This document shows positions 50,079 through 58,574 of a DNA stretch of 64,000 bases, piece by piece. Where the stretch lies: contig JAHBUS010000001.1 of assembly GCA_019637955.1 (NCBI GenBank), positions 620,001 through 684,000 on the forward strand, given 5' to 3'. A program made the position numbers and the translations under genes. The notes beneath the pieces were generated by a model, which did not search any database, had not been told where the DNA came from, and saw only the letters and a program-made list of their open reading frames with translations. Origin of the DNA: Pseudobdellovibrionaceae bacterium (GTDB taxonomy: Bacteria; Bdellovibrionota; Bdellovibrionia; Bdellovibrionales; Bdellovibrionaceae). Position 1 is the first letter of the stretch; every line of letters starts with the position of its first letter.

Positions 50079-50405
50079 ATGTCCCGAGCGAGCGGTCTGC
50101 GTTTTTTCTTTCTTTTTGCCTTAGTGGCCTTCGGATGCGAAATCCTGCAAGCCTCTTCGCCCTTTGTCCGCAATCCTTTGACTTCGATTCAGCAGAGTTC
50201 GATGGACGCCTCAACGGACGACGACTCGCCTTTTGATAGCGAGGACGCCGACGAACCTTGCCTGGATTTCTCGGGCCTCTACGCGATCGTTCCGCACCCA
50301 CCGCAAATTTTTGATCTTCCGCCCTTGACCACCACCCGCCGAAGCGTCTCGTGCTACCCGCTCTCCGCCGATCTTGAACAGCTCAAGCGACCTCCCCGGA
50401 CTTAA
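50079..50405 (+). CDS. Small exported protein upstream of speD, uncertain
   Basis: A 108-residue frame with an N-terminal hydrophobic segment (LRFFFLFALVAFGCEILQASS) that could be a signal peptide, then an acidic stretch (STDDDSPFDSEDADEPC). AAGGTG abuts the ATG, so the ribosome site is poor; a GTG at 50076 overlaps. It is not recognised. It lies 48 bases before speD on the same strand and could be a short leader gene of the polyamine group. Confidence 0.45.
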   Translation: MSRASGLRFFFLFALVAFGCEILQASSPFVRNPLTSIQQSSMDASTDDDSPFDSEDADEPCLDFSGLYAIVPHPPQIFDLPPLTTTRRSVSCYPLSADLEQLKRPPRT

Positions 50406-50452: not shown

Positions 50453-50815
50453 ATGAAAACACACGGATCCCATCTCCTACTCGACGTCTGGCTGCTTGAA
50501 GAGGCCGGGCCCGAACTCGTCGCGCGGATTCAAAACTACGTGCGCGAGCACTTCACCGTGGTGGTCGAAGCCGAAAAACGCTTTGAGCCGTTCGGTATCA
50601 CCGCAGTGCAAATTTTAAGCGAATCGCACTTCACCATTCACACCTACCCCGAGCACCGCTACATCTCGATGGATCTTTACATCTGCGAAATGGGCATCGA
50701 CATGGACCGGGTGCGCCGCGAACTTCTGGCGCTGATGAAGGTCGACAGCTCGCAGGCCTCGTTTCATCTGCGGGGCCACCGCGCCCCGGCCCCCGAAAAA
50801 GACGCATGTCTGTGA
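50453..50815 (+). CDS. speD: S-adenosylmethionine decarboxylase proenzyme
   Basis: A 120-residue SpeD of the short bacterial class, which supplies decarboxylated SAM, the aminopropyl donor for polyamines. The self-cleavage site is in LSESHFTIHTYPEHRY, between E57 and S58, creating the pyruvoyl cofactor from S58. HTYPE and MDLYIC are family segments. TTTTTTGGAGGCCCC precedes the ATG. The next gene overlaps its end by 10 bases. The group lacks a standard SpeE, and the downstream BpsA-like gene may use its product. Confidence 0.94.
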   Translation: MKTHGSHLLLDVWLLEEAGPELVARIQNYVREHFTVVVEAEKRFEPFGITAVQILSESHFTIHTYPEHRYISMDLYICEMGIDMDRVRRELLALMKVDSSQASFHLRGHRAPAPEKDACL

Positions 50816-51417
50816 TCACGCTGTTCTTCTGGGGTCTCGCGCTGGGGATGGTGTCCTCCCTCCCGTTGGGACCGATCAACCTGAACGTTCTACGCCTCTT
50901 GCAATCGGGACGGCGCACCTCCGCAGGCGCCTTCGTCGCGGGAGTGGTGCTGGCCGATGTCGGCGTCGCGGCGCTCGCGCTCTTAGGACTGGTGAGCGCG
51001 AACGTTCCGCCCGAAATTTTGCGCGTGATCAGCGCGGTGGGCGGGGCGGCCTTTGTCTTTTTTGGCCTGTGGGGACTTTTGCGTCCCGCGAGCGTCAACG
51101 CCGCCCAGCAGTCGGGCGCGGTCTCGTTTGTGAGCGGCGTTTTGTTCTGCGGGCTCAATCCGGGCTTTTATCTCTTTTGGGTTTACGCCGCGACCTTTGC
51201 CGCCGCCTCGGTGGTCTCAACGCTCACGGGCGCCGCTTTTCTCGCGGGCGTCTTGATCGGCGATCTGTGTTGGTTCACGCTGTTCACGAAACTCGTTGGA
51301 CTTTTTCACGGACGCCTCTCGCCCCGCACTTGGTCTTCGCTGGCGGGGGGATTGATCCTCGCGTTTGGCCTGTTCGCGCTTTGGGGAGCTTATCATGGAC
51401 ACTTTCAATATGCCTGA
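50806..51417 (+). CDS. LysE/RhtB-family exporter
   Basis: A 203-residue membrane protein with about six transmembrane helices. The N-terminal PLGPINLNVLR and the later GLNPGFYLFWVY are the paired conserved motifs of LysE-family amino-acid exporters. It overlaps speD by 10 bases and the BpsA-like gene by 23 bases. Position between two polyamine enzymes makes export of a polyamine or of its amino-acid precursor likely, by inference. Confidence 0.88.
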   Translation: MSVITLFFWGLALGMVSSLPLGPINLNVLRLLQSGRRTSAGAFVAGVVLADVGVAALALLGLVSANVPPEILRVISAVGGAAFVFFGLWGLLRPASVNAAQQSGAVSFVSGVLFCGLNPGFYLFWVYAATFAAASVVSTLTGAAFLAGVLIGDLCWFTLFTKLVGLFHGRLSPRTWSSLAGGLILAFGLFALWGAYHGHFQYA

Positions 51418-52330
51418 GTCCGCGCAAGACGGCCTCACTTGGGAGCGCATCGTTTCGGCCACAAAGCCCGTCGCGGTGATCCACTCCTTGAGCGGCGATG
51501 CCCAAGTGGCCGAGCAGGCGAAGGCGTGGGTGAACTGGGCCGCGCGCCGCTTTCCCGGGTCGAGCGCCCTTCAAACTTTAAGCCGTGCGAACTTTCACGA
51601 GGCCCTGCAAATTTGGTCGGATCAATTTGCCAAGGCCGAAGGTCCCGAGCCGGAGGCGGACCGCTCTCTTCCCGTGCGCCGTGACTTTTTACCCTCGTCG
51701 GGATTTTTTCGCGCGCACCATCAGCTTCTTTGCACCGAAGACAGCGTGCGCCGCCGGTTCGAAAAAATCCGCGCGGTCTTTTCGCCCGCGGCCAAAATTC
51801 TGATCGTCGGCGATGACGATCAACTCTCGCCGCTGCTGGTGAGCCAAGGGTTTACAAACGTCACGGTGATCGACATCGACGAACGGCTGATTCGAGGCTT
51901 GGCTCAAGTGCAAGGTTTGCGCGCGCGCGTGCACGATCTCACCCAAGATCCTCAGCCGGAGTTGATCGACGATTACGAGCTGATCGTGATGGACCCACCC
52001 TACAGCGCCGAAGGGATTCAGATGTTTTGGCAGGGCGCCTGGAGGCTCGTCCGCGCGAATGCTCGGCCGCGCTTTCACCTGTACTGCGCCTCGGTCTGCC
52101 TGACGAGGGACGGCGTGCGCCAGGCCGCCCAGCAGATTCAAGACCGTGGCTACCGCTTGTCCGAGTTTGTTCCCGGCCTTTGCCGCTACCCCTACTCGCC
52201 GCTGACCCATGCGGGCTTTCGGGCCTTTTTCGCCGCCGCGGCGGTGGCCTTTGGACGCCCACGTTTTTTAACGGGGCCCACGTTGATTCCGAAGGCCGTG
52301 TCATCGGATCTCTGGGTTCTTGAGGGATAG
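51395..52330 (+). CDS. BpsA-like branched-chain polyamine synthase (DUF43 aminopropyltransferase)
   Basis: A 311-residue protein in the N4-bis(aminopropyl)spermidine synthase family. GDDD (139-142 in KILIVGDDDQLSPLL) and DPPY (200-203 in LIVMDPPYSAEG) are the family's acidic and active-site motifs; VIDIDERLI closes the nucleoside site. BpsA adds aminopropyl groups from decarboxylated SAM to the inner amine of spermidine, so pairing with speD makes sense. The ATG at 51395 lies inside the LysE gene and has GGGGAG six bases upstream. The first 100 residues are less clear. Identity by motif and context; product unmeasured. Confidence 0.8.
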   Translation: MDTFNMPESAQDGLTWERIVSATKPVAVIHSLSGDAQVAEQAKAWVNWAARRFPGSSALQTLSRANFHEALQIWSDQFAKAEGPEPEADRSLPVRRDFLPSSGFFRAHHQLLCTEDSVRRRFEKIRAVFSPAAKILIVGDDDQLSPLLVSQGFTNVTVIDIDERLIRGLAQVQGLRARVHDLTQDPQPELIDDYELIVMDPPYSAEGIQMFWQGAWRLVRANARPRFHLYCASVCLTRDGVRQAAQQIQDRGYRLSEFVPGLCRYPYSPLTHAGFRAFFAAAAVAFGRPRFLTGPTLIPKAVSSDLWVLEG

Positions 52331-53349: not shown

Positions 53350-53360
53350 TTGAGGTGCGT

Positions 53361-54179
53361 ATGTTTGCCTTAAAAAATATCATCCCCTCCCTGATGACCG
53401 GTGAGCAGCTGCTGCTCAAACACCAAGAGGCGCCGACGGGGCTGCCCACGGGATACTCGCCGCTCGACCGGCGTTTGCCTCTGGGCGGATTGCCTCGCGG
53501 TGGTTTGTCGCTGTGGGTGAGCCCGCTTGGCTACGGCGCCACCTCCTTGTGGCTCCAGGCTGCGCGCCCATTGCATCTTGAAAAAAAGTGGTCGGCCTGG
53601 ATTTCGAGCCAAACGACGCTGTTCGCACCCGCGGTTTGGAACAAGGGCGTCGATCTGCGTTCGCTCTACATCGTGCGCGCCCCCGAAGACGTCAAAGAGT
53701 GGACGGCGGTTTTGAAAGACTGCCTCATGGCCGATGCCTTCACCATGATCGCGGTTGAGGTCGCCTCCCTCGCACCCTACCGCCGGGCGCTCAAGCAGCT
53801 GCGCCGTCTCGCCGAGAGTGCGAATGTCTGTTTCACCTTCATTTCAAATGATTTGAACGATCTTCAGCGCACCGAGCAGTTTCAGTTCGTCATGCAGGTG
53901 CAGACGATGTCGCTCCAAGTGCACAAGTGCAAAGGGCGTCCCGCGTTTTCGGTTCCCTGGAGCCAGTACGAAGCCATTCTCAAGACTCAGTACGACTCGA
54001 TTTTGGGGAGCCAATATGACTCGAATTTTCTGCCTCAACTTCAATCTGAGCCCAGCCAAGCCAGCCTGGGCCGAGGCGTTTCTGCCCTTCACTCCCCTGC
54101 TGCATTTTCGCGGCGGACTTCTCTGGGGCGACGTCAGCAAAACAACCTGGCTCTTCCAAAATTCCAAAAACCTGCTTGA
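53361..54179 (+). CDS. imuA: ImuA-like protein of the translesion synthesis cassette
   Basis: A 272-residue protein distantly like RecA (PTGYSPLDRRLPLGGLPRGGLSLWVSPLGYGATSLWLQ), which in other bacteria joins ImuB and DnaE2 in mutagenic repair. The ATG at 53361 follows GAGGTGCGT. At residues about 201-224 three copies of an eight-residue repeat occur (SQYEAILK, TQYDSILG, SQYDSNFL). The last 164 bases overlap imuB in another frame, so the C-terminal tail is dictated by two reading frames and is low-complexity. Identification rests on fold-like hints and on the conserved cassette order. Confidence 0.75.
   Translation: MFALKNIIPSLMTGEQLLLKHQEAPTGLPTGYSPLDRRLPLGGLPRGGLSLWVSPLGYGATSLWLQAARPLHLEKKWSAWISSQTTLFAPAVWNKGVDLRSLYIVRAPEDVKEWTAVLKDCLMADAFTMIAVEVASLAPYRRALKQLRRLAESANVCFTFISNDLNDLQRTEQFQFVMQVQTMSLQVHKCKGRPAFSVPWSQYEAILKTQYDSILGSQYDSNFLPQLQSEPSQASLGRGVSALHSPAAFSRRTSLGRRQQNNLALPKFQKPA
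53961..54032 (+). repeat. Three 24-bp tandem repeats at the imuA/imuB junction
   Basis: Copies run 53961-53984, 53985-54008 and 54009-54032. The equivalent of ACG in copies 1 and 2 is ATG in copy 3, and this is the start codon of imuB; the GGGG ending copy 2 provides its ribosome site. Confidence 0.7.
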
Positions 54180-55362
54180 GCGGATTCAACAAACGGCGCA
54201 CGCGTTGGGGGCCACTGATGCCTCGCTCGCACTGAGCGATACGGCCGCGGGCGCGCAGGCTTTCACCAAGCACTTTGCTTTCTTTATTTCCGAACCGGGT
54301 CGTCAGGGCGAGTCCCTGGCGGCCCTCCCCCTTCAGTGCCTTTCAGATCTTGAAGGACTTCGGCCTTGGGAAGACCCCCGGCAGATCGAAGCCATCAGCG
54401 AGTTTCTGCAAAATCTCGGACTGCGCACGCTGGGCGAATTGCAAAACCTGCCGCCCGACTCCTGGGAGCTCAGATGGGGCTCCCTTGGACACGAGCTGCG
54501 AAAAAAAATCGCCGGCACCGATGATCATACGTGGACGCCGCTGATGCCGACCGACACGCTGACCGCTTATCAATACTTTGAAGATCCCTGCGGGCATCAA
54601 CCTACCATCTTGAACAGTCTCGAGAACAAACTGCGCGAACTTTTTTTGCGTCTGGAGGGGCGCTCGCAGCGCCTGGAGGTTCTCAAGATTCTTTTAACCT
54701 GCGAGTACTCGAACAAAAAAATTCCGCTGCAGATCGCACCCACGATGAAGTTTCGCGATTTGCCGTTGATGCTCAAACTTTTGGGCACACGCTTTGAGAC
54801 GATCGACTTTGAAAACCCCATCAAAGAGTGGGAGCTAGAGATCATCCCCGCGCATCAGGGCCATCAGCAATTGGATTTTTGGGAGCCCCAAACCAAGGAG
54901 ACCGACAACCTGCTGCGCCTGCAAAGTGCCCTGCACGACCGGGGCGTGCGGAGCGGGTTCTTGCGTCTTCGCGATGAGCCGGTTCCTGAGCGTGGGTTCA
55001 CGCTCGAGAGCGAAGCCTTCTTCTCCCCTCTGCCGGTCACCGATTACGCGTTTATCAATGACTCTCACCGTTTGATGCCCGTGCAGTCCGAATACTTGCA
55101 AAGCGCGCCGCGCCCCACCCGCCTGAATGAACCACCGCTTCCGCTCACGCCCGATGAGTTTCAGGCACTGAGGCTCTTGCACACGCAGCCGCTGGAGCGC
55201 CTCGATCTTCCGTGGCACCAAGGTCCGCACGGCGAAGGTCTTGCGCGCGATTACTGGATGGCGATGAACGCCTTTGGTCAGATTTTATGGGTGTACCGAG
55301 ATCTTCGCTGGTCGAGCGAGAGCGGTGAACCTCGTTATTTCGTGCAGGGGTACTTCGATTGA
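54016..55362 (+). CDS. imuB: ImuB-like Y-family polymerase homologue, non-catalytic
   Basis: A 448-residue protein with the little-finger-like and helix-hairpin-helix features of ImuB (LGLRTLGELQNLPPDSWELRWGSLGHELRKKI). The catalytic carboxylates of active Y-family polymerases are not seen, as in known ImuB, which works as the beta-clamp-binding hub between ImuA and DnaE2. QQLDFWEP near residue 300 resembles a clamp-binding QxxLF. It starts at ATG 54016 with GGGGAGCC just ahead, inside imuA (164-base overlap), and its TGA overlaps the TTG of dnaE2. Confidence 0.85.
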   Translation: MTRIFCLNFNLSPAKPAWAEAFLPFTPLLHFRGGLLWGDVSKTTWLFQNSKNLLERIQQTAHALGATDASLALSDTAAGAQAFTKHFAFFISEPGRQGESLAALPLQCLSDLEGLRPWEDPRQIEAISEFLQNLGLRTLGELQNLPPDSWELRWGSLGHELRKKIAGTDDHTWTPLMPTDTLTAYQYFEDPCGHQPTILNSLENKLRELFLRLEGRSQRLEVLKILLTCEYSNKKIPLQIAPTMKFRDLPLMLKLLGTRFETIDFENPIKEWELEIIPAHQGHQQLDFWEPQTKETDNLLRLQSALHDRGVRSGFLRLRDEPVPERGFTLESEAFFSPLPVTDYAFINDSHRLMPVQSEYLQSAPRPTRLNEPPLPLTPDEFQALRLLHTQPLERLDLPWHQGPHGEGLARDYWMAMNAFGQILWVYRDLRWSSESGEPRYFVQGYFD

Positions 55363-58300
55363 AAACCTCGATCGTCTCCTCCCCTTCGCTGGATTTTGTC
55401 GAACTGATCGCCCGCAGTCACTTTTCGTTTTTGCAAGGTTCGTCTGCGCCCGACGAGATGATCGCGCAGGCGCAAAAGTACGATTATCTCGGGTTTGGCC
55501 TTTGCGATGTGAACGGGCTTTATGGCGTCGCCCGCGGCTACCGCTTCACCAAGATGGGAACGGTGTTCGATAAGGCCGATCACGTCACGCGTCCCGATTT
55601 TCGCTACCATGTCGGCGCCGAAATGACCTTGCCCGAGGGCAGCGTGGTGCTGATGCCGATGACCCTTCGCGGTTACGGTCATCTCTGCCAGCTGATCACC
55701 AAAAGCAAACGCTCGGCCGAAAAGGCCTACTCCTGCTTGTGTGATGAAGACCTGTTCTTTCATCACGAAGATTTGATCGCCTTCGTTCTGCCGCCGTGGA
55801 ACGAAGTGCGGCTTGAGCGTTACCGCGAGGTTTTTGGCGACCGGCTGTATTTGCCGGTCTGCCGCGATCTGACCTGGGAGTCCAAGGTTCACCAAAGTCA
55901 GGCTTTTTTTTTGGAAGCCAAAGGCTTTCGTCTCTTTGCTTCACAGCGGCCTTATTTTCATGAGCGCTCACGTAAAAAACTGCACGACGTGATGACGTGC
56001 TTGTACCACCAAAAAACCAAATCGCAGGCCGGGCATTTGGTGCTGAGCAATTCGGAGCGCTGCCTGCATTCGGTCGAGGAACTCAAGCTGATCTGGCGGG
56101 ACCGTCTTGATCTCTTGCAGGAGACGAAACTCATCAGCGACCGGTTGAAGTTTCAACTGAACGAAATTAAGTACCGCTACCCTCAAGGCGAACTGCCCGA
56201 GTCGCGAACGCCCATTCAACAGCTGCGCTTTCTTTGTGATGAGGGAATCAAACTGCGGTTCAATCCGGAGGATCAAGAGAAGTACAAAGAGACGATCGCT
56301 AAAGAACTGCAACTCATCGAGGAACTCAAATACGAGGATTACTTTCTCACGCTGTGGGAGATTTGCCAGTTCGCGAAAAGCCGCGGCATTTTGCACCAAG
56401 GACGAGGGTCCGCGGCGAACTCCATCGTTTGCTACCTGCTGGGTCTCACGGCGGTAAGTCCGGGAGAGATCACGTTGCTGTTTGAACGTTTTATTTCTAA
56501 AGAGCGCAGCGAACCGCCCGATGTGGATATTGATTTCGAACATGAACGCCGTGAGGAGGTGATTCAGCATATCTACGAAAAGTACGGCGCCGAACGGGCC
56601 GGAATGGTTTGCAATGTGATCTGCTTTCGCGCGCGCATGGCTCTGCGCGAGATCTGCAAAGTTTACGAAATTTCGAACGAGGTTGTGAGCGAAATGGTGC
56701 GCTTTATGGGGCGTGAGGGGCTGAGCCGCATCCGTGACAATCCCGAGATCTACAAACAATGGCAAATTCCGCCCGCCGTGTTCTTCGAAGTCGTCTCCTT
56801 GGTCACGCAGCTCCGCGGAACGCCCCGCCACTTGGGCATTCATTCGGGCGGCTTCGTGATCTCGCAAGATCCGCTCACCCAAGTAGTCCCTATCGAGAAA
56901 GCCACGATGGAAGGCCGCTATGTTGTGCAGTGGAACAAAGACGATGTTGAAGCCTTAGGTCTGATGAAGCTCGATCTGCTCTCGCTCGGGATGCTGACCG
57001 CGCTTCGCAAATGTCTGGATCTGCTGCGCTCAAGCAAAGGGATTGACTGGCGTCTTGATCAAATTCCCAAAGAAGACCCGAAAACCTACGACATGATTTG
57101 CCGGGCCGAGACCGTGGGCGTTTTTCAGATTGAGTCGCGGGCGCAGATGTCGCTCTTACCAAGGCTGAAGCCCCGTACATTTTATGACTTGGTGATCGAG
57201 GTCGCAATTGTGCGCCCTGGTCCCATTCAGGGTGGCATGATCCACCCTTTTTTGCGTCGAAGGGATAAGACAGAAGAGGTCACGTACGCTCATGAAAAGC
57301 TTAAAGAAGTTTTAAAACGCACGCTTGGCATTCCTCTCTTCCAAGAGCAGATCATGCAGATCGTGGTGGAAGTCGCCGATTTCAAACCGGGCGAGGCCGA
57401 TCAAATGCGCAGGATCATGTCCAATGCCTGGCGCAAGCAAGCGCAGATGGACGGCGTGTATGAGAAGCTCAAAGCGGGGATGCGCAAAAATGGCATCGCC
57501 GATGCTTACATCGACACCATTTACAAAACCATCGAGGGTTTCGCGGCCTACGGATTTCCCGAGAGCCACTCGGCGAGCTTCGCTTTGCTCACTTATGTGA
57601 GCTGTTATTTGAAATGCCATCATCCCGATGCTTTTGTTTGCGCCCTTTTGAACTCGCAGCCGCTTGGTTTTTATGGCCCGCGCCCGCTCATCAGCGAGGC
57701 CCAGCGCAACGGCGTGCGCTTTAAAAACCCCAGCGTGCAGACCTCGCAGATCGAATCCACCTTGGTGCGCGAAGACGGACGCGAGCTGCGCTTGGTGCAA
57801 TTGGGGCTGCAGACGCTGCACGGTCTTCCCACGCGCGTGTTTGAAACCATCATCGAAGAGCGTGAGCGCGGCGGGCTTTATCACGACCTCAATGATTTCG
57901 TCCGCCGCACGCGCCTTCACGCTTCGACGGTCAGCAAGCTCGCGCTCGCGGGCGTTTTTGCCGATCTCGGCATCAGCGCGCGCGAAGCCCTTTGGAAAAT
58001 CCCGTCGCTGCAATTCGATCCGCAAAGTCTGTTCTTCGCGAGCGAAAAAACACAAAACGACGCCGAGCAAAGCTGGTCGCCACCCAAAGCCACCGAATGG
58101 GACGAACTTTTGCGGGAGTACCAGGCCACCAGTTACTCGGTGGACCGCCATCCTCTTTTGCTGATGCGGCCGCATCTCAACCGCATCAACGAGGAGGTTC
58201 GCCGCCGCCGCTATGGCCTGACGTATGTGACTTCCGCGGATTTACCGAACATTCCCGATAAGCGGCAGGTGCGCTTCGCGGGCCTTTTGAGCGTGCAGCA

Positions 58301-58574
58301 AAAACCGCCCACGTCCAAAGGCGTCTCGTTCCTCACCCTTGAGGATGAGTTCGGTTTTTTCAATGTCGTGCTGATGCCCAAAGTGTACGAGCAGTCACGT
58401 CTCTTGATCCGCGCGCAACCTTTGCTCGAGGTCGTCGGCAAACTCGAGAAGGTGCAAGGCGTTTACAACATCATCGCCTCGCACGTGAAAGCCGCGCCGG
58501 TGTTCGGAGAAAAGGCAGACAACTCCAACGAAGCCCCCGACTACAAACACCTCAAACCCCGCTTCTTCTATTAG
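55359..58574 (+). CDS. dnaE2: Error-prone DNA polymerase DnaE2
   Basis: A 1071-residue C-family polymerase that copies damaged templates. The PHP domain begins FVELIARSHFSFLQGSSAPDEM; the polymerase aspartates are in PPDVDIDFEHERREEV and in the motif with DVEALGLMKLDLL; AAYGFPESHSASFALLTYVS and a C-terminal OB fold (VRFAGLLSVQQKPPTSKGVSFLTLEDEFG in part) follow. The TTG start overlaps the imuB stop (TTGA), with GGGG eight bases upstream. The three genes make one SOS-type mutagenic unit, likely controlled by the dyad before imuA. Confidence 0.95.
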   Translation: MKTSIVSSPSLDFVELIARSHFSFLQGSSAPDEMIAQAQKYDYLGFGLCDVNGLYGVARGYRFTKMGTVFDKADHVTRPDFRYHVGAEMTLPEGSVVLMPMTLRGYGHLCQLITKSKRSAEKAYSCLCDEDLFFHHEDLIAFVLPPWNEVRLERYREVFGDRLYLPVCRDLTWESKVHQSQAFFLEAKGFRLFASQRPYFHERSRKKLHDVMTCLYHQKTKSQAGHLVLSNSERCLHSVEELKLIWRDRLDLLQETKLISDRLKFQLNEIKYRYPQGELPESRTPIQQLRFLCDEGIKLRFNPEDQEKYKETIAKELQLIEELKYEDYFLTLWEICQFAKSRGILHQGRGSAANSIVCYLLGLTAVSPGEITLLFERFISKERSEPPDVDIDFEHERREEVIQHIYEKYGAERAGMVCNVICFRARMALREICKVYEISNEVVSEMVRFMGREGLSRIRDNPEIYKQWQIPPAVFFEVVSLVTQLRGTPRHLGIHSGGFVISQDPLTQVVPIEKATMEGRYVVQWNKDDVEALGLMKLDLLSLGMLTALRKCLDLLRSSKGIDWRLDQIPKEDPKTYDMICRAETVGVFQIESRAQMSLLPRLKPRTFYDLVIEVAIVRPGPIQGGMIHPFLRRRDKTEEVTYAHEKLKEVLKRTLGIPLFQEQIMQIVVEVADFKPGEADQMRRIMSNAWRKQAQMDGVYEKLKAGMRKNGIADAYIDTIYKTIEGFAAYGFPESHSASFALLTYVSCYLKCHHPDAFVCALLNSQPLGFYGPRPLISEAQRNGVRFKNPSVQTSQIESTLVREDGRELRLVQLGLQTLHGLPTRVFETIIEERERGGLYHDLNDFVRRTRLHASTVSKLALAGVFADLGISAREALWKIPSLQFDPQSLFFASEKTQNDAEQSWSPPKATEWDELLREYQATSYSVDRHPLLLMRPHLNRINEEVRRRRYGLTYVTSADLPNIPDKRQVRFAGLLSVQQKPPTSKGVSFLTLEDEFGFFNVVLMPKVYEQSRLLIRAQPLLEVVGKLEKVQGVYNIIASHVKAAPVFGEKADNSNEAPDYKHLKPRFFY

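Follow-up and report, generated by a model that had tools for sequence, protein, structure and literature searches.

A speD, lysE and BpsA-like gene unit predicted to make and export an aminopropylated polyamine in a relative of Bdellovibrio

Three overlapping genes that run in the same direction lie within the window, by which is meant the whole 64,000-nucleotide stretch of DNA analysed here. The first (speD, 50453..50815, + strand, 120 aa) is predicted to encode a divergent class 1b S-adenosylmethionine decarboxylase; the second (lysE, 50806..51417, + strand, 203 aa) encodes a LysE-type translocator, a predicted exporter; and the third (51395..52330, + strand, 311 aa), which begins at an ATG at 51395 and has an alternative upstream TTG start at 51365, encodes a BpsA-like protein, predicted to be an aminopropyltransferase dependent on decarboxylated S-adenosylmethionine (dcSAM). 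All three products exceed the curated Pfam cut-offs, with scores of 62.1 bits for SpeD against PF02675 (cut-off 25), 40.1 bits for LysE against PF01810 (25.6), and 36.8 bits for the BpsA-like protein against PF01861, BpsA_C (27). speD and lysE overlap by 10 bases and lysE and the BpsA-like gene by 23, which bears out the trio of overlapping genes described in an earlier note on this DNA. In GC content, overall and by codon position, the three genes are like their neighbours, and the unit thus carries no mark of recent foreign insertion. Neither an Rfam RNA nor a sigma-70-like promoter was found at the unit.

Just 5' of speD is an ORF (50079..50405, + strand) for a possible small secreted or membrane-anchored protein of 108 aa, with a hydrophobic N-terminal stretch, an acidic middle and no Pfam match. 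ORFs occupy a similar upstream position in two of the relatives discussed below, Bacteriovoracaceae UBA4573 (L038:4291-4626) and an Oligoflexus genome (L045:4262-4702). Its position is alike in the three genomes but its similarity to the other two is not significant (no better than 41 of 500 shuffles), and its membership of the unit as a fourth conserved gene is uncertain. Elsewhere in the window (53355-58574), RecA-like/ImuA-like, ImuB-like and DnaE-like genes stand in a row and look like a mutagenesis (ImuA-ImuB-DnaE2) cassette. These names come from visual reading of the translated sequences, the first gene also giving a sub-threshold RecA match.

The host, a relative of predatory Bdellovibrio, is represented by a genome of 3.77 Mb in 14 contigs that is 99.9% complete, and the window speD is the only SpeD gene in it. 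The earlier note had remarked on the lack of speE, and this holds both in the window and genome-wide: spermidine synthase (PF01564) has no match across the whole host genome and has matches in 11 of 14 control genomes. The search thus left the BpsA-like protein as the sole candidate for using dcSAM. SpeA (biosynthetic arginine decarboxylase) is encoded above its NCBIfam cut-off, as are two agmatinase-family proteins above the agmatinase cut-off, and agmatine deiminase is absent from the host genome. A homospermidine synthase of 489 residues is encoded about 4 kb outside the start of the window (L114:1701-3170; contig 1, about 614,200-615,669); it matches the solved structure PDB 4plp at 1.8e-236 and is very close to the Blastochloris viridis enzyme. 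With SpeA, agmatinases and homospermidine synthase all encoded, the host can, on its gene content, make putrescine and homospermidine. No route to spermidine, the substrate of BpsA, was found in the host genome. A carboxyspermidine decarboxylase route was rejected, the two PF02784 proteins being SpeA and LysA, the latter also encoded here; a second PF03435 match proved to be a TcdA-like protein, and its identity as a dehydrogenase was likewise rejected. A distant deoxyhypusine-synthase-like protein (L113:3950-4933, contig C8) falls below every NCBIfam cut-off.

This gene content departs from that of most relatives. SpeD occurs in 52 of the 65 other genomes of the host family, usually sharing a frame of some 430 residues with SpeE; the two translations that were read show a SpeD-SpeE fusion. 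The host genome is without this SpeD-SpeE fusion and has the homospermidine synthase instead.

Window SpeD matches PDB 1tlu at 3.7e-12, and its Ser58 (the predicted pyruvoyl residue), His63 and Cys78 correspond to Ser63, His68 and Cys83 of the Thermotoga maritima enzyme. The conserved region retains its two prolines, one of which may be the residue that separates AdoMet decarboxylase from SpeD-derived arginine decarboxylase. The equivalog cut-off of TIGR03330 (75.65) is reached neither by window SpeD (64.2 bits) nor by its counterpart in UBA4573 (72.9). These two proteins form a clade (support 100/99) with membrane-fused SpeDs of related Bdellovibrionota and a single phage protein, that of Pseudomonas phage ZRG1 (L110:3001-3390), which is 41% identical to window SpeD and whose gene, flanked by a ParB-like and a DUF1441 gene, precedes the terminase. 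The membrane part of the fused SpeDs resembles membrane-type aminopropyltransferases (PRK03612, 4.1e-41), and each fused SpeD adjoins a membrane protein of similar size, with a SpeE domain in both of those checked by Pfam. At these loci (L092-L096 and L098), the membrane-fused SpeD and its membrane-type SpeE-like neighbour mostly have company upstream, from one more membrane protein and a large protein.

The PF01861 match of the BpsA-like protein covers only profile positions 47-130 of 243, that is, the catalytic core. In the tree, the window protein forms one clade (support 100/99) with proteins from UBA4573, a further phylum genome (G179) and loci L037, L039 and L045; this six-member clade is separate from Thermococcus kodakarensis BpsA and its kin, and the window and G179 branches are long. 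A profile of the clade matches BpsA in the PDB at 3.8e-11, the next best protein scoring 0.013. Structure models are confident over a core of residues about 111-266 and 301-310 and of low confidence at the N-terminus. A Foldseek search with a model built from clade members only placed BpsA structures at ranks 1 to 9 (1.8e-9 to 6.1e-8), ahead of methyltransferases, the first being 2qm3, the homologue from Pyrococcus furiosus, which was entered in the PDB as a predicted methyltransferase; with the first model, made from an alignment that included canonical BpsA, the top eight were BpsA structures. Identity to characterised BpsA is low, at about 15-19% in Foldseek.

These searches bear on the reading in which no aminopropyl transfer takes place, the BpsA-like protein being a SAM-dependent N-methyltransferase, SpeD a re-purposed arginine or ornithine decarboxylase, or both. 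The DPPY motif of the BpsA-like protein (residues 200-203; 51992..52003, + strand) is the classic motif of amino-methyltransferases, and relatives give weak RsmD-like and RrnaAD-like matches. Against this, BpsA beats every methyltransferase in both sequence and fold searches, and the invariant motif is GDDD rather than the glycine-rich motif of methyltransferases. As for SpeD, re-purposing as an arginine or ornithine decarboxylase has been described in genomes without SpeE, and SpeD without SpeE, as found here, is the very pattern by which such proteins were sought (PMC10407285). Those genomes lacked SpeA and SpeC (PMC10407285), unlike the host, which has SpeA together with agmatinases, and the nearest relatives of window SpeD adjoin a SpeE-domain protein. 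Taken together, this reading appears unlikely.

Which parts of BpsA have been kept and which lost can be read from the alignment. The GDDD motif (residues 139-142; 51809..51820, + strand), the dcSAM aminopropyl-binding motif of BpsA that orients dcSAM (PMC12979288), is invariant across clade members and canonical BpsA; none of the six members has lost its aspartates (Asp158-160 in T. kodakarensis), Asp225 or Tyr290, the latter two being Asp200 of the DPPY motif and Tyr265 of Tyr265-Pro266 (52187..52192, + strand) in the window protein. Glu259 of the acceptor site is lost from all six, being Cys in the window protein and Ser, Gly, Val or Cys within the clade, and Tyr316 of T. kodakarensis BpsA is replaced by Phe or Val. 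The N-terminal part of BpsA is missing from the window protein, as is the acidic C-terminal tail (ELYDDEE), whose residues act as aminopropyl carriers (PMC12979288); the window protein ends at the last strand. Clade members have a hydrophobic helix before that strand, which canonical BpsA does not, and their Ser304-Asp305 is invariant.

Canonical BpsA, which a 2026 review describes as restricted to thermophiles, follows a ping-pong mechanism in which spermidine and dcSAM yield a branched polyamine (PMC12979288). The Pfam BpsA_C match, the BpsA fold and the GDDD motif would all suit a true BpsA making branched-chain polyamines such as N4-bis(aminopropyl)spermidine; such an identity is nevertheless very improbable given the separate, well-supported clade, the combined loss of Glu259, the N-terminal part and the acidic carrier tail, and a genome in which no spermidine route was found. 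Of the suggestion in the earlier note that dcSAM is channelled to an unusual or branched polyamine, the channelling agrees with a single candidate consumer of dcSAM, while the word 'branched' finds no support for these same reasons. On its sequence, the window protein is a relative of BpsA, not a proven branched-polyamine synthase, and fits the description of a 'BpsA-related aminopropyltransferase clade'.

Among 369 genomes of the phylum, PF01861 is matched above cut-off in only three: the host, UBA4573 (G359; DGKJ01000053.1, Bdellovibrionota) and G179. In other genomes of the host family, matches are weak and below cut-off, mostly to a short stretch within a frame of about 435 aa. UBA4573 carries the full unit (L038:4684-6654), with speD, lysE and the BpsA-like gene overlapping by 10 and 23 bases exactly as in the window, and identities over the aligned parts of 50% for SpeD, 32% for LysE and 32% for the BpsA-like protein. 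The same genes with the same overlap lengths despite such divergent proteins indicate that the grouping is more than chance. SpeE was not found in UBA4573; inspection of 62% of that genome (1.73 of 2.8 Mb) revealed SpeA and agmatinase but not homospermidine synthase. In G179, lysE and the BpsA-like gene lie together with no speD adjoining, SpeD and SpeE being encoded elsewhere in the genome. A scan of GTDB genomes contributed the three further clade members (L037, L039 and L045), the last from an Oligoflexus MAG in which a lysE-like gene adjoins the BpsA-like gene. The exporter remarked on in the earlier note is thus part of a conserved unit, export itself being a prediction. The clade members at L037:5767-6618 and L039:5779-6624 are without adjacent lysE or speD and are divergent from apparent AddA/AddB-type nuclease genes. 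The plasmid and viral collections searched held no BpsA-like relative.

Besides UBA4573, the GTDB scan also turned up BpsA homologues that do not belong to the clade, at seven loci. In three genomes of Chloroflexota, a single frame encodes canonical BpsA joined to SpeD (L040:2225-3724, L041:1-1572 and L047:3802-5322), with one further BpsA copy after the fusion in L040 and two in L041, and a full-text search found no paper on a BpsA-SpeD fusion protein in the literature collection covered. These fusions constitute an independent link between SpeD and BpsA.

The same genome comparisons bear on whether the BpsA-like protein simply replaces SpeE, adding one aminopropyl group to putrescine to give ordinary spermidine, any excess of which LysE would relieve by export. 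SpeE is missing from both genomes with the full unit, the host is without the SpeD-SpeE fusion of most of its relatives, both full-unit genomes have SpeA and agmatinase as suppliers of putrescine, and an enzyme that passes the group straight to a small acceptor would have no need of the BpsA carrier tail. However, the host already has homospermidine synthase as a source of triamine, and a normal SpeE is encoded alongside the clade member in G369, G372 and G179, so that the BpsA-like enzyme is not always the sole aminopropyltransferase. A linked exporter is also unusual for a housekeeping spermidine synthase and counts against this explanation, which on balance seems rather unlikely.

We consider it somewhat better than an even chance that speD, lysE and the BpsA-like gene form one operon-like unit that makes and exports an aminopropylated amine, with homospermidine or putrescine as the most likely acceptor. 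In this proposal, SpeD would decarboxylate S-adenosylmethionine to dcSAM, and the BpsA-like protein would bind dcSAM through GDDD and pass its aminopropyl group to an amine supplied by other cellular pathways. In the host this amine is most likely homospermidine, the product of homospermidine synthase, or putrescine, which SpeA and agmatinase would provide. With the carrier tail missing, the aminopropyl group probably goes straight to the acceptor, as it does in SpeE, or travels by way of another residue, for example the invariant Asp305. The product would be aminopropylhomospermidine or spermidine, which LysE is predicted to export or to keep from accumulating. A SpeD that retains every processing residue together with the conserved prolines counts in favour of this proposal; the low identity to characterised BpsA, the loss of Glu259 and the acidic tail, and the presence of SpeE beside other clade members count against it. 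Since no homospermidine synthase was found in the inspected part of UBA4573, homospermidine may not be the acceptor shared by both genomes. Aminopropylhomospermidine is a known bacterial polyamine and the major one in Rhodothalassium salexigens (PMC11999265), so the product could be a molecule already described. What the unit makes and exports is probably an unusual polyamine, and it could be ordinary spermidine.

A fuller account, advanced tentatively and as less than evenly probable, is that the clade represents a second BpsA-derived aminopropyltransferase family, without a carrier tail and found in bacteria of ordinary temperatures, which together with a dedicated divergent SpeD and LysE makes an exported unusual polyamine (e.g., linear or branched aminopropylhomospermidine), and that this unit displaced the SpeD-SpeE fusion in the lineage of the host. 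The BpsA family has so far been characterised only in thermophiles, and a tail-less clade in Bdellovibrionota and Pseudomonadota, with its gene beside those for a SpeD and an exporter, would widen its chemistry and biology, would offer a direct test of the need for a carrier tail in aminopropyl transfer, and would connect the export of polyamines with a lineage noted for its predators.

Several known systems share features with the unit. BpsA of T. kodakarensis and Thermus thermophilus (EC 2.5.1.128; PF01861) has the same catalytic domain by homology, with GDDD and the equivalents of Asp225 and Tyr290, and is the best fold match; it differs in having Glu259, an N-terminal winged-helix/CxxC part and the acidic C-terminal tail, and in lacking the extra hydrophobic helix of the window clade, whose hosts among Bdellovibrionota and Pseudomonadota are not known thermophiles. 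The SpeD-SpeE fusion of the host family likewise pairs an AdoMet decarboxylase with an aminopropyltransferase, but does so in one polypeptide with a typical SpeD and a SpeE-type enzyme. In speD2-speE2 of Pseudomonas aeruginosa (PA4773-PA4774), a divergent SpeD again stands beside a non-housekeeping aminopropyltransferase, here a SpeE-type thermospermine synthase with no LysE; mutation of this pair reduces surface-associated norspermidine, and its product has been linked to surface polyamines (PMC11107197). Finally, membrane-fused SpeD and SpeE occur together in related Bdellovibrionota (L092-L098). That SpeD is of the same clade as window SpeD and likewise has a membrane element and an aminopropyltransferase domain next to it; unlike in the window unit, the enzymes themselves carry the membrane domains by fusion, and the aminopropyltransferase is SpeE-type (PRK03612-like).
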